Below are positions 37,564 to 49,234 of a stretch of 64,000 nt of DNA, piece after piece. This DNA comes from Natronobeatus ordinarius. GTDB taxonomy: Archaea > Halobacteriota > Halobacteria > Halobacteriales > Natrialbaceae. The notes under the pieces are model-generated. The model had not been told where the DNA came from. It ran no database searches and was given only the letters and a program-made list of their open reading frames with translations. The DNA lies in assembly GCF_024362485.1 (NCBI RefSeq), contig NZ_CP101456.1:3968001-4032000 (forward strand), read 5' to 3'. Each line of letters starts with the position of its first letter. The first letter of the stretch is position 1. The translations under genes were made by a program, and so were the position numbers.

Positions 37564-38160
37564 CTACTCCGGCCGGCCGACGGAGCGAGCGATCGAGACG
37601 ACGAGTGCCGCCGTCGTAACGCCGAGGACGAACCACAGTCCGGCCCCACCACCGAGCGGCAGGACTCCGGCTCCCGCGACGACGAGGGCGACCCAGACAG
37701 CCGAGAGAAACAGTGTAACGTGCGTCCAGCGGGCTGAGTCGTCGGACTCGCGTTCGATGTGGTCGCGGAGTGTCGCCAGCTCGGGGTTCGGTTTCACCAC
37801 TCCCGAACTGCTGTCGTACTCGATAATTCCCAGCCGGTCCATCTTCGGCAGGTGCGTCTGATACAGCGAGATGTACACTCGCTTTCGTTGTTTGTAGGTC
37901 ACCTCCGGCAACGAGACGTCGTTCTCCCACGCCGCGAGCTGTTCGGCCAGGGTTCTGAGTCGAACCGCTCCGTCCTCAGCCTGGTCAAGGTACCTGATCG
38001 TAAACCGGCGACGTGGGTTCGAGAGGATCTCGAATATCTCGTTCTTCGAAAGCTCCTCACGATCGGTAGTCTGTGCGTAATTCAACTGTGTTGCGTCCCG
38101 TAACTGTTCGCGCTGACTTGAGTGCACGTTCTGGCCACCCCCGCCGACCTGGTATTTCAT
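37564..38160 (-). CDS. DUF7344 winged-helix membrane-anchored regulator, copy 1
   Basis: 198-aa protein. Residues 35-135 form a winged-helix domain of the DUF7344 type: EIFEILSNPRRRFTIRYL, LAEQLAAWEN, KRVYISLYQTHLPKMDRLGI, IEYDSSSGVV. Two C-terminal membrane helices follow (about 150-192). The family is abundant in haloarchaea and thought to be regulatory. Its DNA target is unknown. Another member is at 39332..39862, with a membrane-associated Cys protein between them. Confidence 0.85.
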   Translation of the reverse strand: MKYQVGGGGQNVHSSQREQLRDATQLNYAQTTDREELSKNEIFEILSNPRRRFTIRYLDQAEDGAVRLRTLAEQLAAWENDVSLPEVTYKQRKRVYISLYQTHLPKMDRLGIIEYDSSSGVVKPNPELATLRDHIERESDDSARWTHVTLFLSAVWVALVVAGAGVLPLGGGAGLWFVLGVTTAALVVSIARSVGRPE

Positions 38161-38454
38161 GTTACTGATTAAGTATGAAGTTGTTTCTACACTAACCTGG
38201 AACGTAATATCTCACTAACGTACTTCGTTTGATAGATCAGTCGCCAGTGAGCGGTCCCGGATCCGGGCTGCGTCGCCGCGAGTCGATCACTCCCGACCGA
38301 CGACACTCACTCGATTCACAGCCGGCCCCTCGGGGGCTCGAGTGAGAGACACAGCCCACCGCTCGAGGCACCGGCCGCAGTTCGACGCTCGAACGACGGT
38401 CTCACCCACCGGTATGCCCGTCGTAACTACCGCCCGTCACACCAATTGGCTGGT
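38161..38454. other. Divergent promoter region, about 290 bp
   Basis: Lies between the divergent DUF7344 gene and the Cys-containing membrane protein. The left part is AT-rich (TTACTGATTAAGTATGAAGT at 38162-38181), with a TTAAGTAT-like box suited to the minus-strand gene. No gene or clear operator palindrome seen. Confidence 0.45.
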
Positions 38455-39297
38455 ATGTTCGAGGAGCGTTCGATCCCGACCGTCACAGCCCTGAAAAACC
38501 CGGCCTACACCGGAGCGAACAGGTGCATCCCGTGTACCGTCCTCAACGTGCTGCTCGCGGCCGCACTGGCCGGAACCGCAGGTATCCTGTCGAGGGGATG
38601 GACGACCGAGGGCGGGCTCGTCGCCGTCGCCATCTTCCTCGCGTCGGCCGGCGTGATTTACCTTCGTGGCTATCTCCTCCCGGGAACGCCGGCGCTGACG
38701 AAGCGGTTCCTGCCGGAGGCAGTGCTCGCACGGTTCGATAAGCTGCCGACCGTCACCGACGGTCCACGCGATCCGGGTGCGGCGCTGCGTGCGATCGGCG
38801 TCGTCGAGGACGCGCCGACGCGCGACGACCTGATTCTCGTGCCCGCGTTCGAACGGGCGTGGCTCGAGGCGATGACCGAGCACGCGGCGACCGACGACGC
38901 CCTCGAGCGGGGACTCGCGGCGGTGATGGAACTCGACGGGAGCCACCTCGAGGTCGAGCGCCGGACCACCTCCGTCGCCGCCATCCACGAGGGAACCGTG
39001 GTCGGTAAGTGGGAGTCCAGAGCCGCCTGCCAGGCGGACGTAGCCGCCGCCGCGGTACTGCCCCGGTTCGATCCACGGTGGTCTCGGCGCCCGGTCCTCG
39101 AGCGACTGGACCTCCTCGCAACGCTCAGGCTCTTTCTCGAGGCGTGTCCGGCGTGTGGCAGCGAGGTCTCGCTCTCTCATGAGGTCGTCGAGTCGTGTTG
39201 TCGAAGTCACGACGTCGTCGCCACGGCCTGTGACGCCTGTAGCGCCCGGCTGCTGGAGACGCCGATCGATGCCGAGGCGCTCGAGGAAGAGAGATGA
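38455..39297 (+). CDS. Membrane protein with C-terminal Cys pairs, unknown
   Basis: 280-aa protein. Two N-terminal membrane helices (about 27-46 and 50-70) follow a CIPC motif (NRCIPCTVL). A soluble middle domain (75-215) precedes a C-terminal zinc-finger-like region with ACPACGS, ESCCRSHDVV and ACDACSARLLETP. I do not recognise the family but the layout (thiol pair, helices, zinc ribbon) is seen in haloarchaeal membrane proteins. ATG at 38455 chosen over a TTG three codons earlier. It lies between two DUF7344 genes. Confidence 0.7.
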   Translation: MFEERSIPTVTALKNPAYTGANRCIPCTVLNVLLAAALAGTAGILSRGWTTEGGLVAVAIFLASAGVIYLRGYLLPGTPALTKRFLPEAVLARFDKLPTVTDGPRDPGAALRAIGVVEDAPTRDDLILVPAFERAWLEAMTEHAATDDALERGLAAVMELDGSHLEVERRTTSVAAIHEGTVVGKWESRAACQADVAAAAVLPRFDPRWSRRPVLERLDLLATLRLFLEACPACGSEVSLSHEVVESCCRSHDVVATACDACSARLLETPIDAEALEEER

Positions 39298-39331
39298 GTG
39301 GTCGTTCCCGCGCGTTGCGTATGAGTGGTCG

Positions 39332-39862
39332 TTACCTGCGCATCGCGTGGGCGATCACCCACCGGTTCGACCACAGCTGCGTGCCGATCGTCACGGCGAA
39401 GATCGTCAGGAAGAGACTCGACCACAGCAGCGGGTCGACGCTGGAGACGACGGGGAAGTCCGTAAGCGCGGCGAGCACGACGGCGAGCGAGAGGACGCCG
39501 AGCGTGCGATAGAGCTCGCTCCAGGTCACCCCGTAGCCAGTGACGACCTCCATGTATCGATCGACGTCGCGGGCGCGCTGGCGCACCTGAACCGTTCGCT
39601 CCTCGCGGTCGTACTCGACGACGCCGAGCTCGTGGAGCTTCGGGAGGTGCGTCTGGTGCAGCGAGTTGTACACGCTCTCTCGAGCGCCACTCGGCGGCGG
39701 CGACTCGCCGGTCTCCCGCGTGGCGACCGCCCTCGACAGCTCGTGCAGGGAAATCGGCCCGCTGCCTCCCGAGACCGTCAGCTGCTTGATCGTCTCGCGG
39801 CGTCGGCGGTTGGCGAGTATCTCGTAGATCTCCCCCTCCGGAATCGCGTGTGTCCTGAACAT
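39332..39862 (-). CDS. DUF7344 winged-helix membrane-anchored regulator, copy 2
   Basis: 176-aa protein: winged helix in residues 8-110 (GEIYEILANRRRRETIKQL, LHELSRAVATRETGE, ESVYNSLHQTHLPKLHELGV, VEYDREERTVQV) and two membrane helices at about 128-170. It is divergent from the SipW-substrate operon across a 429-bp region, so it is the obvious candidate regulator of that operon; this is positional inference. The ATG at 39860-39862 was chosen because the 58 upstream codons are unrelated to the family. Confidence 0.85.
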   Translation of the reverse strand: MFRTHAIPEGEIYEILANRRRRETIKQLTVSGGSGPISLHELSRAVATRETGESPPPSGARESVYNSLHQTHLPKLHELGVVEYDREERTVQVRQRARDVDRYMEVVTGYGVTWSELYRTLGVLSLAVVLAALTDFPVVSSVDPLLWSSLFLTIFAVTIGTQLWSNRWVIAHAMRR

Positions 39863-40291
39863 CGTCACCCCCAGTAGCCGAAGTCGACTCGAGCGACCTC
39901 GACCACCCCTAATTCGGGAATACAGAACGACTACTATCACTACGAGGTACTTACCGGCGCCGGTATGGGTTGCCTGGTTCGACGCTGCGTGAGGATACAG
40001 CCCGTTTCTTCGCTCCGGGATCGGCCTAGGAAGCACATATGGCGAAACCAGTCACGTAAACGATGTATTTATTTTCACGACTGTCACCGAAGCGGTTAGT
40101 TTGGTGGCCGTCCTCGAGGCTAATCGACTATTCGACGCCGACGAATGGGTGATTCGAATCGACACCGAATCGGCTATCGTCTCGTTCGATCGTGACGTGT
40201 TGGATCGTAACTACGTGGGGAAAGACGGTTGTTGAGCACGACCTCAGCCGCTTGCCAACGCAGGGCGCGGCTGGGGAGATGGAGAAAGATC
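39863..40291. other. Divergent regulatory region before the SipW-type operon
   Basis: 429 bp without a gene. It contains GTACTTACCGGCGCCGGTA (39949-39967, palindromic GGCGCC core), an AT-rich GATGTATTTATTTTCACG (about 40060-40077) that is a good TATA candidate on the plus strand, and an imperfect repeat GATTCGAATC/ACCGAATCGG near 40151-40175. The distance from the TATA candidate to the first ATG (about 220 nt) would imply a long leader. Confidence 0.45.
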
Positions 40292-41080
40292 ATGACAGAC
40301 GACAACACCATTGGACTGTCCCGGAGACGCGTACTGGGCGGGCTCGGCGCCATCGGCGTCGCCTCCGCCGGCGCGGGTATCGGGACGACGGCGTACTTCA
40401 GCGACCAGGAACAGTTCGACGACAACACGATCACCGCCGGCGAGTTCGGCCTGACCGTCAAACAGGCGGTCACCGAGGTCGATCAGGACGGCATCGGTCC
40501 CGACGAACTGACGTTCAACAGTAACGTAGAGGAGTCGGAATACGGGGTCTGGGCTACGGACACGATTACCATCGAGGACGCAAAGCCCGGAGACAAGTAC
40601 GAGTTCTGCTGGAAGCTCAAAGTCCACGACAACCCCGGCTACGTCGCGGTTGCGGGCGATCACACCGACGAGAACGGTGTTGACGCAGGCAACGTTTCGG
40701 TGGACGACCTCTGGGACATCGATGAGGAAGGGGAGCTGTCGACCCTCGGTGACGAGGTCCTGGTCGATTCCCTCAAGATCACGAACGGGAAGAAAGAGGT
40801 CGGCTACGAGTACGGAGAGTACTACGACACGCTCGGGGAGCTTCTCGAGGACCTCGAAGACGGCGTGCTCTTGCACACCGACGACGGTGATGTGCCCATC
40901 ACGTTCGAACCCGGTAAGAAGTGGTTCCTCTGCGTGAAGCTGTCGATCCCGACGGACGTCGGGAACGAGATCCAGGGCGCCTCGCTCGAGTGGAACAAGT
41001 CGTTCTACGCCGAGCAGGCGCGCCACAACGACGACACGGACGCCTTCGTTGGACGTGCGGTCGGTGCACACGGGGACTGA
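40292..41080 (+). CDS. SipW-dependent-type exported protein 1 (TasA/camelysin-like)
   Basis: 262-aa exported protein. The N-terminus combines a Tat-like LSRRRVLGGLG with the SipW-type motif GTTAYFSDQEQF, then NTITAGEFGLTV. The body carries the blocks KLKVHDNPGYVAV and the C-terminal SLEWNKSFYAEQARHND, shared with the following paralogues. This is the pattern of TasA/CalY/AbpA-like beta-sandwich fibre or matrix proteins. First gene of a six-gene unit that ends with its likely peptidase and a sixth SipW-type protein. ATG at 40292 follows GGAGAAAGATC. Confidence 0.82.
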   Translation: MTDDNTIGLSRRRVLGGLGAIGVASAGAGIGTTAYFSDQEQFDDNTITAGEFGLTVKQAVTEVDQDGIGPDELTFNSNVEESEYGVWATDTITIEDAKPGDKYEFCWKLKVHDNPGYVAVAGDHTDENGVDAGNVSVDDLWDIDEEGELSTLGDEVLVDSLKITNGKKEVGYEYGEYYDTLGELLEDLEDGVLLHTDDGDVPITFEPGKKWFLCVKLSIPTDVGNEIQGASLEWNKSFYAEQARHNDDTDAFVGRAVGAHGD

Positions 41081-41093
41081 ACAGGAGTGAACA

Positions 41094-42515
41094 ATGCCCA
41101 ATGATTTCGAACTGACACGTCGGAAAGCGCTCGCTGGGATCGGCGCGATTGGCGCGGCTTCGGTCGGGGCCGGCCTCGGTACGAGTGCGTACTTCAGCGA
41201 TCGGGAGACGTTCGATGGCAACACGCTGACCGCCGGTGAACTGGACCTTCGGATCGACTGGCAGCAGCTGTACTTCGGGCCGGAGGCGAACGCCCACCAC
41301 TACGCTCCGTACGGGAAAGCAGGTTATCCGTACGTCAATGCGCATCCGGATCACGATACGACCGGAGAGCAATCGCTAGACAGCGACGACTTTGACTCCG
41401 TCCCCGATCACGGCGTAGTCCGCTACTCCGACGAGGACGCGAACATTCAGGAGTACCTGACCTGCGAGACGCTCGAGAACTTCGAGGCCCCGGACGATTT
41501 CGACAACGGCGTTGGCGAACCGCAGAGTAGCCTGATCGAACTCGAGGACGTCAAACCGGGCGATTGCGGAGAGGTGACGTTCAGTCTCCATCTCTGTGAC
41601 AATCCCGGGTACATCTGGTGGATCGGCCAGGTAAACGAGTTCGACCACGACCTGGCGAAAGCGATCAAAGTCAAGGCGTGGTACGATCTCGGGTGTACCA
41701 ACGAGTTCGACGAGGAAGACGGTGACAAGATACTCGTCGAGTGCACGGACCTGCACACCTTCGTTCAGGATCGGCTCACTCCGAACGGTCGGTTCCTCAA
41801 CCCCAACGTCTACGACGGGGCTGGCGTCGGTGGAGACGACGCGCTCGACGGTGAACCCGAGATCGACTGTAGGGACCTCGATAAGATCGAGTTCGAAGAA
41901 GACGGGCCGGTGATGGAACATGGAGAGATCCTCGATGTGTTCGTCGAGGACGGCGAGCTGAAGCTCGTCGCGCTCTTCCGTTCGCCTGACGGCGACGTGG
42001 AGATCCTCGTCCAGTTCTCGGAGCTCATCTACAAGGACGAGGACGACAACGAGGTGCTGGCAACGAGCGAGGACGAGATCGACTGGGAAGAGATCGTCGA
42101 GTACGACTGGGACATCCTCGACAGCTACGACGGGTACGAAACCACTGATGACGCCGGAATGTGTGAGAAGACGATCAAGTCGGGCACAGCTGAGGAGACG
42201 AGCAATCTGATCACGTCGTTGGGCTGTACGACCGGGCAGACGAACGTCCGGACACCAGGGACTGGTCCCCAGCAGCAACCGCAGGGAATCAGCCACATCG
42301 AGTTCAGGTACTGCGCGTCCGAAGCACCGCCGCTGTGCTTCCCCGAGGAAGAGACGTTCTGCGTCGCGTTCGAGTGGTGCTTGCCGACGTCCACACCAGA
42401 ACACGTCGACGACATCAACGACCTGCAGGGTCAGTCGATCAGCTTCGACCTCGGCTTCTACACCGAGCAGTGCCGACACAACTCGAACCCGAGTGGCCCA
42501 TCCGGGTTCGTCTAA
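41094..42515 (+). CDS. SipW-dependent-type exported protein 2, large
   Basis: 473-aa paralogue of protein 1. Its N-terminus is LTRRKALAGIGAIGAAS followed by GTSAYFSDRETFDGNT and TAGELDLRIDW. It has the DNPG block (FSLHLCDNPGYIWW) and the C-terminal FDLGFYTEQCRHNSNPSG. It contains a large Asp/Glu-rich insertion (about 200-380) and about ten cysteines, more than protein 1, so disulphide-stabilised. Starts 13 bp after protein 1; same transcript likely. The size suggests a fibre cap, anchor or second subunit, which is inference. Confidence 0.82.
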   Translation: MPNDFELTRRKALAGIGAIGAASVGAGLGTSAYFSDRETFDGNTLTAGELDLRIDWQQLYFGPEANAHHYAPYGKAGYPYVNAHPDHDTTGEQSLDSDDFDSVPDHGVVRYSDEDANIQEYLTCETLENFEAPDDFDNGVGEPQSSLIELEDVKPGDCGEVTFSLHLCDNPGYIWWIGQVNEFDHDLAKAIKVKAWYDLGCTNEFDEEDGDKILVECTDLHTFVQDRLTPNGRFLNPNVYDGAGVGGDDALDGEPEIDCRDLDKIEFEEDGPVMEHGEILDVFVEDGELKLVALFRSPDGDVEILVQFSELIYKDEDDNEVLATSEDEIDWEEIVEYDWDILDSYDGYETTDDAGMCEKTIKSGTAEETSNLITSLGCTTGQTNVRTPGTGPQQQPQGISHIEFRYCASEAPPLCFPEEETFCVAFEWCLPTSTPEHVDDINDLQGQSISFDLGFYTEQCRHNSNPSGPSGFV

Positions 42516-42608
42516 CCGCGGAGTCGAGCGACGACTCCCGATCTCGACCCACACTGGTGCAGCAGACTGTTCCCACATCGTGGGAGCACGTTTCTCCTTG
42601 CTGAAGAC

Positions 42609-42634
42609 GGTGGTTCGATTCCACCGGTGGGCCC
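42609..42634 (+). other. tRNA T-arm-like 3' fragment
   Basis: GGTGGTTCGATTCCACC is a perfect 5-bp T-stem with canonical TTCGATT loop, followed by GGTGGGCC, which would fit an acceptor 3' strand. No matching cloverleaf is found upstream, so it is a tRNA-like remnant or chance. A short hairpin CCCACATCGTGGG lies just before it (42575-42587). Confidence 0.35.
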
Positions 42635-42653
42635 TCACATCACTCGAGACCGT

Positions 42654-43355
42654 ATGACATCGAACCGAATCACTCGTCGAAACCTGCTCGCCGGGATGGC
42701 TGGCGGGAGCGTCGCCTCGTTCGCCTGGCTGGCGATCACGGCCGGCGGCGGCCGCGGACGCACCGACCCGAACGACGCACAGACGGCCGTAACTGACAGC
42801 CTCCGGCTCACCTGGTGGGAGACGTACAACGGAGCGACGCTGACGACATCGACCGCCAGCACCGACGGTGGCGCGGCCGCTGGCCCGGCGATCTCGCTCG
42901 GAAACGTGCTCCCGGGGGATTTCGGCACGCTCACTATCCGACTGCGCCTCGACTCGGAGACGGCCGACGAGGTCGCCGTGAAGCCGGTACTCAGCGTCTC
43001 ACTGATGGGCGAGCCGAGGTCGTCCGGCCTCGAGGAGTTCCTCGACGCCACCGTCTGGTACGACACCGGGGTGTTCGGAATCGACGCCTTCGGCGCCCAC
43101 AACGGCGAACGGAATTTCGGCGAGCGCCTCGTCAATCCCGACGCGGACGGGACCCTTGCCGACGTCGCGGCCGCCCTCGAGGATGGTCTCGTCCTCGATC
43201 CAGCGCCGTTCCTGCCCGGAACGAGCTGTCTCGAGAACGACGACGACGTGACGATCACTATCGGCTGGTCGTTTCCGCCGGAACAGGAGCACGTCAACGC
43301 TGCCCAGGGAACGTCCGTCGAGTTCGACCTTCGGTTCGACGTCGAGCAATGCTGA
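42654..43355 (+). CDS. SipW-cluster exported protein 3
   Basis: 233-aa exported protein with a clear twin-arginine start (RITRRNLLAGMAGG) and hydrophobic stretch, but no AYFSD motif. The middle contains GDFGTLTIRLRLDSETADEV and the C-terminus ends VEFDLRFDVEQC, matching the terminal motif of proteins 1 and 2 but stopping right at Cys. It is a divergent paralogue that has lost the SipW box; cleavage may be by the general machinery. 138 bp separate it from protein 2, with a tRNA-like fragment in the gap. Confidence 0.75.
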   Translation: MTSNRITRRNLLAGMAGGSVASFAWLAITAGGGRGRTDPNDAQTAVTDSLRLTWWETYNGATLTTSTASTDGGAAAGPAISLGNVLPGDFGTLTIRLRLDSETADEVAVKPVLSVSLMGEPRSSGLEEFLDATVWYDTGVFGIDAFGAHNGERNFGERLVNPDADGTLADVAAALEDGLVLDPAPFLPGTSCLENDDDVTITIGWSFPPEQEHVNAAQGTSVEFDLRFDVEQC

Positions 43356-43650
43356 TCCACCGCAGCCCTGGACCCCATCGGAGACGGCCGTTCACTCGAG
43401 GTCGGCCCCGGACGGCGATTCTGCGCCGTAGTAATCGATCATTACTCCGGTTGAACGTCACGGTAGGTAACACATTCATATCAACCGTCGTGTCGTCGGT
43501 GTCGGTGAGCCAGCCGCTCGATACGGGGCGAGTGCTGGGGGAAGAACGATAGATGAGGGGGAAACAACGGAAGACTGGGTTCGCTGGAGGGGACGAACTG
43601 ACGGAGACCAACACGACGGCTGAGCCACGTCCGCAGCGGAGGTGGATCAC

Positions 43651-44718
43651 GTGACCGATCGGTCCACCGGGCCGACTCGACGGCAGCTGCTGGGGGCCGT
43701 CGCCGGCGTGGGTGCCGTCGGCGCCACCGTCGGTGTGACGGCCGCCCACCTGCACGATCGGGACGGCGGTGCGATCACGATCCAGGCGGGAGCGGTGTCG
43801 ATCGACGTCGACTGTGGCGCGTGTTTCGAGGCGGACGGATCGATCGGGTTCGAGTTCGGCGACCTCGAGCCCGGAGGCGACGTTCGCCGAGAACCGTTCG
43901 CACTTTCTGTCGAGGAGAACCCGGCGCGACTCTGGGTTAAGACGGCGTGTCCACCCGCCGTCGACCCGCTCGGGGACGCCCTGCAGGTGCGACTCCTCCT
44001 CGAGCGAACCGACGGGGAAGCGCAGCTCTTCCCCGCAGTAGACGACGCGTTCGGTACCCTCGGTTCACTCAAAGACGAGTTCAGCGATGGGATTCGACTC
44101 GACGATCGTCTCGACGGCCCCTGCCTCTCGAGTGAGGACGAGCTCTCGCTCGTGCTCGAGTACGTACTCCCCGAGGATGCCGACTGGACCGCCGACCTTC
44201 GGACCGAGCTCCGCTTCGAGGTCTTCGCCGAACAGTGCAGGCACGTCTCCGAAGACGACGTCGGCGATCCGTTCGCGGAGGCCACAGGCGCCTGCCCCGA
44301 ACTCGAGTGTCCAGCGTGTGAGCCACTCGGAAAACTGGACGTCGTCGGCGACCGACTCGAGCCGGGAACGTACGCCTTCGACGAGCTCTACGGCGAGTTC
44401 GAAGCCGACGGTCACGTGTACGAACTCGGCGTCCTGACGGCCACGAACAAGGACGATGGTGGCAGTGAGGAGACGATCTGCGCCAGCTTCAGGCTGCTGA
44501 AGGACGGTATCGAGCTGAACGCGCCACCGATCTGCACCGTCGACGTTGCCGGGGGCCCCTCCAGAGAGCCCGGGCCGGCGACCGAGACGTACGAGATCGA
44601 TCCCCCGCTGACGCGCACCACCGAGGAACTCTGCACGGAGAACGGAATCGCAGCGATCAGCAACGTCACGGTGTCCGTCTGCCCCGATGGGGACGACGAC
44701 GGGGGTGCTGACTCGTGA
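43651..44718 (+). CDS. SipW-cluster exported protein 4
   Basis: 355-aa exported protein: GPTRRQLLGAVAGVGAVG signal, then TAAHLHDRDGGAITIQAGAV, a degenerate form of the TxAYFSDxE...TAGE block. It has EYVLPEDADWTADLRTEL and LRFEVFAEQCRHVSED, the shared terminal motif at about residue 190, followed by an extra Cys-containing domain (CPELECPACEPLGKLDVVG to the end). The GTG at 43651 is preferred to the GTG three codons upstream. Its stop overlaps the peptidase start by 4 bp, so translation is coupled. Confidence 0.77.
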   Translation: MTDRSTGPTRRQLLGAVAGVGAVGATVGVTAAHLHDRDGGAITIQAGAVSIDVDCGACFEADGSIGFEFGDLEPGGDVRREPFALSVEENPARLWVKTACPPAVDPLGDALQVRLLLERTDGEAQLFPAVDDAFGTLGSLKDEFSDGIRLDDRLDGPCLSSEDELSLVLEYVLPEDADWTADLRTELRFEVFAEQCRHVSEDDVGDPFAEATGACPELECPACEPLGKLDVVGDRLEPGTYAFDELYGEFEADGHVYELGVLTATNKDDGGSEETICASFRLLKDGIELNAPPICTVDVAGGPSREPGPATETYEIDPPLTRTTEELCTENGIAAISNVTVSVCPDGDDDGGADS

Positions 44719-45731
44719 ACTACCGACGGATCGCGAGCGTGCTCGGCTTCGTCGTTCTGCTCGTGCTGGTGACCCCGTTTCTCGTGTACGCGGTCCCCGG
44801 AGCGATCGGGGCCGACCACAGTTTCGTCGTCCTCTCGGGGAGCATGGAGCCGGAGCTCTCGCCTGGCGACGTCGTGATCGTCGAGGAGACCGATCCGTCG
44901 ACGGTCGAAACGGGTGACGTCGTGACGTTCGTCCGCGAGGGAGAGGGTGCACCGGTCACGCACCGGGTGATCGGCGTCGAGGAGCGAAACGGCAACGTCG
45001 CGTTCGAGACGCAGGGCGACGCGAACCCGGAGCCGGATTCGGGACTCGTCCCGGGAGAGAATCTCGTCGGTGCTGTCGTCCTCACGATCCCACTCATCGG
45101 GCACGTCATCCAGTTTGGGAGCACGACAGAAGGGCTCGTACTGCTCGTCGGCCTGCCTATCGGGCTGTTGGTGCTATCAGAGCTCTGGGCGGTTATGAGC
45201 GCTGTCAAAGACGACTCGAGCACGGACGAAGCGGCCCGATCCGACAGTGGTTCAGCCGAGGGCAACGCCGCGAGCACGGAGGCGGAAGACGAGATCAGCG
45301 TTCACGTAACGGATCTGACGACCACACTCGGCGTCCTGGCGCTGGTGGCACCGTACACCATCTACGTCGCACTTCAGTTGCAGACGACGATCGCGATCAC
45401 CGCCGCGTTTGCGGCGAGCCTTTCGGCGCTCGGACTCGGCGCCGTGTGGCTCTCGGCACGACTCACGGGAGACCGCGGAGGAAAATCGACGGCTGCCGAC
45501 TCCTCGAGTGAGACGCCCGACGCGGCGACTCCGAAAGCCGGCAGCGAACCCGCGCTGGAACCGGGACGATCCGATTCGGTCGGCGAACGCGCGGTCACCG
45601 TCTCCCCGGAGTCGGAGACGGGAGTTTCGCTCGAGAACGGATCGTCGGAGCCGATCGCCGGCACCGCAGCGCACAGAGCTGAGCCAGCTTCCGGTGGCGA
45701 TTCGGAGACCCAGGGAGGTGAGCGAGAATGA
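44715..45731 (+). CDS. SipW-like archaeal signal peptidase I (S26B)
   Basis: 338-aa membrane peptidase. One N-terminal helix (about 8-28) precedes the catalytic box VVLSGSMEPELSPGDVV with nucleophile Ser43. THRVIGVEE supplies His83, the Ser/His arrangement of archaeal/ER and Bacillus SipW enzymes in place of Ser/Lys. GDANPEPDSG is the conserved acidic box. Two further helices follow (about 140-165 and 205-260), then a Ser/Glu-rich tail. Embedded between substrate genes with 4-bp overlaps on both sides, it should process the cluster proteins. Confidence 0.88.
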   Translation: MNYRRIASVLGFVVLLVLVTPFLVYAVPGAIGADHSFVVLSGSMEPELSPGDVVIVEETDPSTVETGDVVTFVREGEGAPVTHRVIGVEERNGNVAFETQGDANPEPDSGLVPGENLVGAVVLTIPLIGHVIQFGSTTEGLVLLVGLPIGLLVLSELWAVMSAVKDDSSTDEAARSDSGSAEGNAASTEAEDEISVHVTDLTTTLGVLALVAPYTIYVALQLQTTIAITAAFAASLSALGLGAVWLSARLTGDRGGKSTAADSSSETPDAATPKAGSEPALEPGRSDSVGERAVTVSPESETGVSLENGSSEPIAGTAAHRAEPASGGDSETQGGERE

Positions 45732-46504
45732 ACCTGGCTACCAGGGGAGCTGTGGTCGTGGTCTGTCTCGTCGTCGTCTCGAGCGCGTTCGTCGGCGCGT
45801 TTGGAACCGTCGCGTTATTTACCGATGCAGAACGCGCATCCGGCGAGTTTTCGACCGCCGAGAACTATGGCGACGCCGTCACGACGGTCAACTCGTCCGA
45901 CCTGATCCATGGTGACTCCGGTATGATCGAAGACGGAGCGACGGCCGGGGATAACGAGACAGCCGTATCCGAGTCGGACGAGGACGAAGCAGACGCCGCC
46001 AGCGAGGACGGAGCGAACGAGGCGGATGAAGAACTCGAGGACGGACCGGATGGGGACGACGCAGACGAGGCGGACGCAGACGAAACAACCACGGACGAGG
46101 ACTCTGGAGACGACTCGGAGGAAGAGTCAGAGACGGACAACTCAGAGGAAGAATCCGAAGCTGACGACTCAGATGAGGAATCTGAAACCGACGACTCGGA
46201 GGAAGAATCCGAAGCTGACGACTCAGATGAGGAATCTGAAACCGACGACTCGGAGGAAGAATCCGAAGCTGACGACTCAGATGAGGAATCTGAAACCGAC
46301 GACTCGGAGGAAGAATCCGAAGCTGACGACTCGGAGGAAGAATCCGAAGCTGACGACTCGGAGGAAGAATCCGAAGCTGACGACTCGGAGGAAGAATCCG
46401 AAGCTGACGACTCGGAGGAAGAATCCGAAGCTGACGACTCGGAGGAAGAATCCGAAGCTGACGACTCAGATGAGGAATCTGAAACCGACGACGCAGACGA
46501 GTAA
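45728..46504 (+). CDS. SipW-type leader plus acidic 9-residue repeat protein
   Basis: 258-aa protein. A signal helix (residues 5-27) runs into FGTVALFTDAERASGEFSTA, a good SipW-type processing motif. After a short linker, residues 85-258 are almost only Asp, Glu, Ser, Thr and Ala, ending in 14 copies of a nine-residue unit of the type DDSEEESEA. The polyanionic tail would be extended and highly hydrated, suited to binding cations or coating the surface. Gene overlaps the peptidase by 4 bp and is last in the operon. Confidence 0.82.
   Translation: MNLATRGAVVVVCLVVVSSAFVGAFGTVALFTDAERASGEFSTAENYGDAVTTVNSSDLIHGDSGMIEDGATAGDNETAVSESDEDEADAASEDGANEADEELEDGPDGDDADEADADETTTDEDSGDDSEEESETDNSEEESEADDSDEESETDDSEEESEADDSDEESETDDSEEESEADDSDEESETDDSEEESEADDSEEESEADDSEEESEADDSEEESEADDSEEESEADDSEEESEADDSDEESETDDADE
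46109..46486 (+). repeat. 27-bp tandem repeat, 14 units, coding
   Basis: Fourteen in-frame 27-bp units encode nine-residue repeats. Two variants occur: DDSEEESEA and DDSDEESET. Units 3-8 alternate, then six identical DDSEEESEA copies follow, then one DDSDEESET. The six identical DNA copies suggest recent slippage or unequal exchange. Confidence 0.92.
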
Positions 46505-47644: not shown

Positions 47645-47800
47645 AGCCGAGAGGCCGCGGCGAGGGTGTATAAAACCGCCGTGAATCGTCGAAGCCGGCC
47701 GAGGCGGCGCTCGAGGTAAGTAACTGTTTGGGTTCGTTTCATCGCCGGCGAATACCCTATCGAATTATTATTGGAATTTGTGAAAGGGACACACGCTACA

Positions 47801-49234
47801 ATGAAATTCACGAGACGGAAACTGATGCAGGGAATCGGTGGAACGGGTGCGACGCTCGCGTTCGCTGGGATCGCGAGTGCTGACGAACACGACCAGCAAG
47901 TCCAGTACATCGTCATCGGTGGCAACGGCGTCAGCCGACGACTCGAGCGCGCCGGCTTCGACGTCGTGCAGGAACTCGCCGGCGGCCAGGTCTTCGTCGC
48001 CTACGGCCCGGCAGGAGCCGATCCGGCGTCGATACGAGGCGTAACCCACGCCGCGGAAGGCGCACGGTTTCGACTCGAGGAACCCGGACTCGAGGATGGC
48101 GTCACGGAGGCGAGCGTGGAATTGCCGGCGTTCTACGAGGAGTACCTCTGGGACAAACAGGTCACAGAATCACTCGAAGCGAACGAGTATGCAACGGGCG
48201 AAGCTCAACAAATCGCGATCGTCGATACCGGGATCGACTACGCCCATCCCGAACTCGTGCCGAACCTCGATGAAGACGCCGGACGGCTGTTCAGGGAAGG
48301 AGAGATCCGCGAGGGTGAATGCGAGGTCGTGGTGCCCGACGATTACGGTGCTCCGACGGAGTTGACGACCGAGGAGTTCCACGTCGCCGACGAACAGCAG
48401 GGCCACGGCACGCACGTTGCGGGGATCGCCGCCGCTGCCGACGGGGATGGCGTGATCGGCACCGCACCCGACGCGACGCTCACCTCGCTTCGCGTCTTCT
48501 GGTGGGATCTGGTGCCGGACGAAGAGGCGGGGGAACTGGTGCCGGCGGCCGTCACGACGAGCGGTGACGTCCTGACCGCGATCGACTACGCCGCGAGCGA
48601 GGGGCACGACGTGGCGAACCTCAGCCTCGGCACGGCCCCGCTCCCGCCCCAGCTGAACGGCGAGACGTTCGTCCGGGCGTACAAACTGGTCGTCGAACAC
48701 GCCGTCCAGCAGGGGACGGTGATCGCCGCGAGCGCGGGGAACGCCGAGACGAACCTCCAGCAGGGCGGCCTGTTCAGCCTCCCGAACAGCATCCGTGGCG
48801 CGATGAGCGTGAGCGCGACCGGGCCGAACGACGAGCTCTCGTTCTACTCGAACTACGGGACGAACGAGATCGACGTCGGCGCGCCGGGTGGCGGATACGA
48901 AACGCTGGAGAAGACGGTCGTCGAAGATCCCGAAGAGGTCGACTGGCCGTTCCCGACCAACCTCGTGTTCTCTGCGACCTCCCTTCGTGTCGAAGGAGCG
49001 CTCTACGGCTGGAAGGCTGGCACCTCGATGGCTGCCCCACAGGTCGCCGGACTCGTCGCGCTCGTGCGCGAACTCGAGCCCGAGGCGAACGCGCGGCAGG
49101 TCGAATCCGCCATCAAGGCGGGTGCCGAGGGGGCGACCGGGAGAAGTGACGCTGCGCTCGGTGCCGGTCGGATCAGCGCACTGAAGACAGTCGAGGATCT
49201 CGACGGAGACGGCCCAGGCGGCAGCAGTCGGTAA
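47801..49234 (+). CDS. Tat-exported subtilisin-like serine protease (halolysin-type S8)
   Basis: 477-aa secreted protease. Twin-arginine signal KFTRRKLMQGIGG, cleavage probably after IASADEH. Propeptide to about residue 120, then the S8 domain: Asp142 (IVDTGID), His205 (GHGTHVAG), oxyanion Asn314 (SAGNAE) and Ser409 (GTSMAAP). No C-terminal extension beyond the catalytic domain. ATG at 47801 follows a TATA-like CGAATTATTA at 47761-47770. It stands close to the SipW cluster but on its own promoter. Confidence 0.93.
   Translation: MKFTRRKLMQGIGGTGATLAFAGIASADEHDQQVQYIVIGGNGVSRRLERAGFDVVQELAGGQVFVAYGPAGADPASIRGVTHAAEGARFRLEEPGLEDGVTEASVELPAFYEEYLWDKQVTESLEANEYATGEAQQIAIVDTGIDYAHPELVPNLDEDAGRLFREGEIREGECEVVVPDDYGAPTELTTEEFHVADEQQGHGTHVAGIAAAADGDGVIGTAPDATLTSLRVFWWDLVPDEEAGELVPAAVTTSGDVLTAIDYAASEGHDVANLSLGTAPLPPQLNGETFVRAYKLVVEHAVQQGTVIAASAGNAETNLQQGGLFSLPNSIRGAMSVSATGPNDELSFYSNYGTNEIDVGAPGGGYETLEKTVVEDPEEVDWPFPTNLVFSATSLRVEGALYGWKAGTSMAAPQVAGLVALVRELEPEANARQVESAIKAGAEGATGRSDAALGAGRISALKTVEDLDGDGPGGSSR

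Follow-up and report, generated by a model that had tools for sequence, protein, structure and literature searches.

What kind of surface structure, if any, is built by a run of haloarchaeal genes in which four related exported proteins are followed directly by a signal peptidase? The window analyzed here is a 64,000-nt stretch of the Natronobeatus ordinarius genome (GCF_024362485.1, contig NZ_CP101456.1, positions 3,968,001 to 4,032,000, forward strand). Between positions 40292 and 46504 of the window, six consecutive plus-strand genes encode the related exported proteins P1 to P4, the SipW-like signal peptidase P5, and the acidic repeat protein P6, exactly as a preliminary description had read them. 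That description took the six genes for a self-contained fibre or matrix locus akin to the SipW/TasA system of Bacillus; absent from it were the regulatory genes, the twin-arginine motif of P1–P4, and an RNA element between P2 and P3.

A conserved gene cluster in Halobacteria

The features of the locus, in window coordinates, are as follows.

37564..38160, minus strand: DUF7344 protein, a predicted regulator, second copy (Pfam PF24035, E 2.3e-32; in many loci, homologues lie no more than about 3.5 kb ahead of the first subunit gene)
38446..39297, plus strand: 283-aa protein (U283) whose N-terminus has two hydrophobic segments and whose C-terminus is rich in Cys; seen at this same place in many loci
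39332..40036, minus strand: DUF7344 protein, a likely regulator, divergent from the putative fibre operon (PF24035, E 4.3e-27)
40292..41080, plus strand: P1, twin-arginine SipW-type leader and predicted TasA-fold subunit, mature from Tyr35 (TIGR04088; AF2 model; TasA as top match)
41094..42515, plus strand: P2, second P1-family subunit, with a long insert (TIGR04088; family profile; synteny)
42572..42641, plus strand: tRNA-like RNA element (T-arm hairpin at 42609–42625; CCCAC/GTGGG acceptor-like pairing; covariance-model match)
about 42654..43355, plus strand: P3, divergent single-copy subunit with a twin-arginine leader and no SipW site, ending in EQC (profiles; synteny)
about 43651..44718, plus strand: P4, predicted TasA-fold domain and Cys-rich C-terminal domain, degenerate SipW site (AF2 model; VIA)
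44715..45731, plus strand: P5, SipW-like (ER-type, Ser/His) signal peptidase with a long membrane and disordered C-terminus (TIGR02228; SEC11C; Ser43/His83)
45728..46504, plus strand: P6, Sec-type SipW leader, donor-strand-like N-terminus, and disordered polyacidic repeat tail (leader; composition; alignment)

Synteny, which the preliminary description had left to genome searches, is conserved. A profile-guided search found 74 homologous loci in Halobacteria, and most of them have the same gene order, with one to five P1/P2-type subunit genes followed by P3, P4, and the peptidase gene. In these loci, the P3–P4 and P4–peptidase overlaps are typically 4 bp and the gap between subunit genes has a median of 118 nt. 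The window itself has two 4-bp overlaps, P4/P5 at 44715–44718 and P5/P6 at 45728–45731, as had been described, and a P3–P4 gap of about 295 nt. The start of P4, a GTG, was set by its closest homologues (L050 and L051), which begin 'MTD..PTRRQ'.

In 57 of the 74 loci (tallied by inspection), the first subunit gene has a divergent DUF7344 gene at most about 1.1 kb upstream; beyond it there is often another DUF7344 gene, together with a gene for a 283-aa protein homologue. Because of this recurrence, the conserved unit is 37564–46504: the six genes stand as a cluster, but the unit is larger and reaches upstream to 37564. Regulation of the putative fibre operon probably falls to the divergent DUF7344 gene. 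U283 was considered as a marker specific to the system and rejected; it belongs to a generic haloarchaeal family present in 55 of 61 genomes and with eight matches in its own genome, of which the paralogue at this position is conserved at these loci. A gene for a twin-arginine subtilisin-like protease is located just beyond the locus (window 47771–49234).

The gene cluster appears to be common to much of the class Halobacteria. Proteins with SipW leaders occur in 134 of 292 sampled Halobacteria genomes and in 49 of 77 genera, and P1 has a match in 20 of the 61 genomes searched; the module is thus patchy. We found no openly available paper on a haloarchaeal SipW/TasA system.

Leaders and motifs of P1 to P4

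The SipW-leader model TIGR04088 (cut-off 19 bits) scores P1 at 34.1 and P2 at 33.3 bits, the two being its only matches in the whole 4.2-Mb genome; P3 and P4 have no match to it. The earlier reading of the leaders of P1, P2, and P4 as intact or degenerate is borne out, the SipW site being degenerate in the window P4, intact in most P4 homologues, and absent in P3. PF12389 matches the leader region only (P2 23.2 bits, cut-off 22.5; P1 18.8), with no full-length match in P1 or P2, and a search of the N. ordinarius genome with this family gave no matches, so that Pfam alone would miss the proteins. A twin-arginine motif opens each of P1–P4, and none is found in the window P6. Across the 74 loci, RR is present in 207 of 214 P1/P2-type, all 56 P3-type, and 65 of 66 P4-type subunits, and 203 of the 214 P1/P2-type subunits have a SipW-type site.

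Iterated profiles recovered P1–P4 as homologous across the whole domain. The C-terminal motif that they had been said to share reads FYAEQARH in P1, FYTEQCRH in P2, and VFAEQCRH in P4, and P3 stops at FDVEQC. This ending at the Cys is real in the window but is no family trait, since most P3 homologues continue past the Cys, and we dropped it as a hallmark of P3. These features are not chance, because P1 and P2 are the sole TIGR04088 matches in the genome and the gene order recurs in most of the 74 loci. Among ten long subunits scanned, five have von Willebrand A (vWA) domains that lie inside the TasA-like domain or follow it (L061:14173–15819, L071:8282–9862, L083:7978–9750, L100:10001–11755, and L108:2944–4833), and their domain content suggests that these subunits of related loci are adhesive variants.

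Predicted fold of P1 and P4

AF2 models were built for mature P1 and for P4 from separate alignments. The P1 model (51 sequences) has a pLDDT of 83 and a pTM of 0.81, with the first 10 residues averaging 50; the P4 model has a pLDDT of 88. In Foldseek, the TasA fibre 8aur is the only PDB match of P1 under 1e-3 (E 9.5e-4), and the TM-scores of the TasA matches are low (0.39). In VIA, TasA takes ranks 1–3 for both models, with Z of 8.8, 8.0, and 7.5 for P1 (the top match over 155 residues) and 8.6, 8.1, and 7.9 for P4, a Z of 8–9 being barely above the noise level of which the tool warns. The Saci_0406 thread is at rank 4 in both cases (for P1, 7pnb with Z 6.2), and AbpA 7ueg is at rank 28 for P1 (Z 5.1). 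The fold search with P4 barely covered its C-terminal domain (about residues 187–319 of the model), which is Cys-rich and has a conserved CxxxxCxxC after the RH motif.

When a profile of the mature P1 family was run against 177,635 PDB sequences, the two top matches, both weak (E 0.037 and 0.046), were to TasA, and the KPGD and C-terminal QGxSxxxxFxAxQ motifs are colinear. No single line is conclusive, but because Foldseek, VIA with both models, and the sequence profile together point the same way, P1 and P4 are likely related to TasA. The structural models, to which the preliminary description had entrusted its claim of a TasA/AbpA-like fold, both rank TasA first, and an unrelated fold was not obtained.

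The fold alone says nothing about polymerisation, and the four paralogues could instead be TasA-fold monomers, secreted or associated with the S-layer, that the peptidase merely processes. Large inserts or vWA domains in some subunits and the missing SipW site of P3 fit such monomers. However, the leader-strand and KPGD/QG..AEQ.RH motifs are conserved as in TasA, several tandem paralogues come with a dedicated peptidase, and P6 resembles a donor strand (see below), and we regard monomers as unlikely. The TasA fold ranks and the synteny with a dedicated peptidase support the reading as a fibre or matrix locus; fibre formation itself we infer.

A dedicated signal peptidase

P5 matches the archaeal signal peptidase I model TIGR02228 with 117.6 bits (cut-off 51.85) and is the best match to this model in its own genome; its best PDB match is SEC11C. 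Its catalytic-type residues are Ser43 and His83, as previously assigned. The equivalog model for Bacillus SipW (NF046067) scores P5 at 100.4 bits, below the cut-off of 190. Judging by these profile matches, P5 may work like SipW though it falls outside the Bacillus equivalog.

P6, an acidic protein with a donor-strand-like N-terminus

The SipW-type leader that had been noted on the last gene is present in P6, with a TIGR04088 score of 12.9 bits, below the 19-bit cut-off. Of the 64 loci with room, 54 have an ORF with a SipW-type leader that starts no more than 10 nt from the stop codon of the peptidase gene. In three of the 54 (L101, L110, and L116), the P6 slot is taken not by the acidic protein but by a twin-arginine protein that looks folded and has an LTD leader. 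Past residue 55, the window P6 is 58% Asp/Glu and has almost no hydrophobic residues. The hydrophobic fraction after the first strand has a median of 0.06 in P6 proteins versus about 0.30 in P1–P4, so no folded domain is possible; an Ig-like domain as in TapA is absent from P6, whose tails are too poor in hydrophobic residues. The tail is encoded by a tandem DNA repeat (window 46100–46500) of (D/E)-S-rich units, and its length is likely variable between strains.

In 53 aligned P6 N-termini, position +2 is hydrophobic in all 53, position +12 is Phe in 44, and position +18 is Phe or Leu in most. The donor strand of TasA uses F29 and F39, at +2 and +12 when counted from the mature N-terminus (PMC9674648), and the P6 pattern matches this register, as a register of sequence only. 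The N-terminus of TapA nucleates TasA, and secreted TapA residues 44–57 alone restore the Bacillus biofilm (PMC10151520). We consider P6 a candidate TapA-like initiator or cap that consists of a donor strand only, because it is conserved past the cleavage site in the TasA register, has no foldable tail, and has a parallel in the TapA 44–57 result. The main rival is that P6 is merely a secreted or membrane-anchored polyanion, serving in salt or cation buffering or envelope charge, with no part in initiation. The acidity of the tail and its scarcity of hydrophobic residues suit a polyanion, as does the wide variation of the tails among species, but conservation beyond the cleavage site to Phe +12 and Phe/Leu +18 would be superfluous for a mere leader, and P6 is locked to the peptidase gene; we hold a pure polyanion to be conceivable but rather doubtful. 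If the initiator reading is right, the P6 family is a natural donor-strand-only initiator, comparable with TapA 44–57.

A tRNA-like RNA element upstream of subunit genes

The fibre-subunit genes are preceded by what appears, from its conserved sequence, to be a previously undescribed hairpin that copies part of a tRNA. The typical element reads GGCGG TTCGACT CCGCC GGTGGG; after it comes, in most cases, a CCCC/GGGG hairpin and then the next start codon. Its T-loop consensus, GGTTCRANYCC, is that of tRNA, and it is mostly located 38–48 nt upstream of start codons. The window element (42572–42641) stops 12 nt short of the P3 start; its part at 42607–42641 has 40 nt from the T-loop to the P3 ATG, and the window lacks the CCCC/GGGG hairpin here. 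ARAGORN found no tRNA at 42572–42641, Rfam contained no known RNA matching the element, and we found no openly available papers on such an RNA element in pilin operons.

A strict sequence pattern occurs in 73 of 140 subunit–subunit, 11 of 55 subunit–P3, and 2 of 10 subunit–P4 gaps, and in none of 110 P3–P4 or P4–peptidase gaps. In 1.38 Mb, 86 of the 108 plus-strand matches fall in subunit gaps, and the minus strand has only 8 matches. The T-stem is 98.8% paired, with 29 doubly changed cells versus 5.1 in shuffles, but T-stem pairing was in part a criterion for choosing the elements, and this covariation is therefore partly selected; before the filter, all four outer pairs were formed in 86 of 97 core matches. 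An acceptor-like helix scores at least 6 in 41 of 74 cases (13 expected), with a linker of varying length. CCCAC is found in 48 of the 74 elements with GTGGG and in 2 of the 17 variant elements, and 8 of the 17 variants have the complement of their own 5-mer (3.0 expected). These counts lend the outer helix (CCCAC/GTGGG and its variants) moderate support, less than for the T-arm. The minimum-energy fold of the window element is a four-arm cloverleaf with an energy that is not unusual (z −0.5), and the folding z-scores of single elements are modest. Because single-sequence folding energies are weak, the case for the element rests on conservation, covariation, and position.

A covariance model has a single match at E ≤ 0.01 in the N. 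ordinarius genome, the window element (40.2 bits). Searched across the class irrespective of gene context, it matched 55 of 155 genomes and 27 of the 60 genera sampled. The best match per genome was inspected in 26 of the matching genomes, and all 26 are upstream of a twin-arginine exported subunit gene, most by 32–45 nt. The downstream genes comprise 20 with SipW-type leaders, five of a GTGAF/GPGAF pilin family related to PDB 9p0a (counting L180, which was scored 'other' automatically), and one P3-type gene at 294 nt. Two distinct exported-subunit families therefore share the element, which, if this reading is true, is a simple sequence marker for exported-pilin operons in Halobacteria. The second, 9p0a-like pilin system with the same T-arm element is seen at L152:148–4446 and L154:2141–8103, and the L152 system has its own signal peptidase gene.

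RNase P and tRNase Z act on known tRNA-like elements, or t-elements (PMC4326828). We tentatively suggest that the tRNA-mimicking element serves at least two exported-pilin systems and that tRNA-processing enzymes may cut their operons, which would set fixed, unequal amounts of subunits and assembly factors. If true, the element is a new means of tuning pilus operons with tRNA-processing enzymes. A serious alternative to operon segmentation is translational control by a start-codon hairpin or, more broadly, action in translation or transcription (as a Shine-Dalgarno-masking hairpin, attenuator, or promoter) and not as a cleavage site. The position shortly before start codons and the CCCC/GGGG hairpin that often follows agree with this, yet a masking hairpin would require far less conservation than the tRNA T-loop shows, which leaves such control credible but on the doubtful side. 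Attachment sites are often copies of tRNA 3′ ends, and the element could also be a tRNA relic or an integrase attachment site. In halovirus HF2, a tRNA-like gene serves as an attP (PMC8707807). However, the element is repeated ahead of successive subunit genes within one operon, it is spread over the 27 genera with compensatory stem changes, and its single match in the N. ordinarius genome means that no resident tRNA fits it well; this origin, already disfavoured, is highly improbable.

A model for the locus

The whole is best explained, and in our view probably so, by a TasA-type surface fibre locus with trimming by P5, initiation by P6, segmentation of the RNA, and regulation by DUF7344 proteins. 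P1 and P2, together with the minor single-copy subunits P3 and P4, would be exported via Tat as folded beta-sandwich proteins. The dedicated P5 would trim the subunits and P6 between A and (Y/V/L)(F/L)(S/T)(D/A), freeing an N-terminal strand that would, like that of TasA, insert into the next subunit. P6, with a strand of its own but without the receiving fold, would start or cap the fibre like the TapA N-terminus, its acidic tail staying outside or near the envelope. P3–P4–P5–P6 would be a minor cassette for assembly, whose parts are closely coupled in most relatives, and the T-arm-like element would separate the subunit genes from it, and often from each other. Cuts at the element by tRNase Z and/or RNase P would yield mRNA segments that provide subunits and assembly factors at different levels, and the divergent DUF7344 gene would regulate the operon. 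The missing SipW site of P3 and the degenerate site of the window P4 count against a fibre.

We thus see the locus as a likely TasA/SipW-type system, in a variant form widespread in Halobacteria that has twin-arginine leaders, more than one subunit, P6 as a likely initiator, and an undescribed RNA element. If this is right, TasA-type matrix fibres are a widespread and so far uncharacterised surface structure of halophilic archaea. Twin-arginine subunits are presumably folded already, which constrains how donor-strand exchange can start.

Comparison with known systems

The locus resembles the tapA-sipW-tasA operon of Bacillus subtilis in its SipW-type leader and cleavage context, its dedicated Ser/His signal peptidase, a donor-strand-like N-terminus, and an accessory gene that overlaps the peptidase gene, and its subunits resemble TasA in the predicted beta-sandwich and the KPGD and C-terminal QGxSxxxxFxAxQ motifs. 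Unlike TasA, which is Sec-exported, P1–P4 have twin-arginine leaders. The haloarchaeal locus also differs in having several tandem subunits and the conserved P3 and P4, DUF7344 regulators in place of SinR, and RNA elements between subunit genes; P6, unlike TapA, is encoded downstream of the peptidase and has no Ig domain. The AbpA bundling pili of Pyrobaculum and the Saci_0406 threads of Sulfolobus are likewise archaeal donor-strand beta-sandwich filaments and are among the structural matches of P1, but they belong to other lineages and are less similar to P1 than TasA is.

The haloarchaeal pilin PDB 9p0a, whose family we take to be DUF1102-like, shares with the locus twin-arginine exported subunits, a nearby signal peptidase gene (L152), and the same T-arm RNA element; it differs in its leader, GTGAF.S.EADR, and its similarity to P1 is weak and restricted to the leader region. 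The t-elements of Haloferax volcanii, which precede 5S rRNA, are also tRNA-like RNAs within a haloarchaeal transcript, whereas the element described here lies between protein genes of one functional class, has a CCCC/GGGG hairpin after it in most loci, and is putatively processed.
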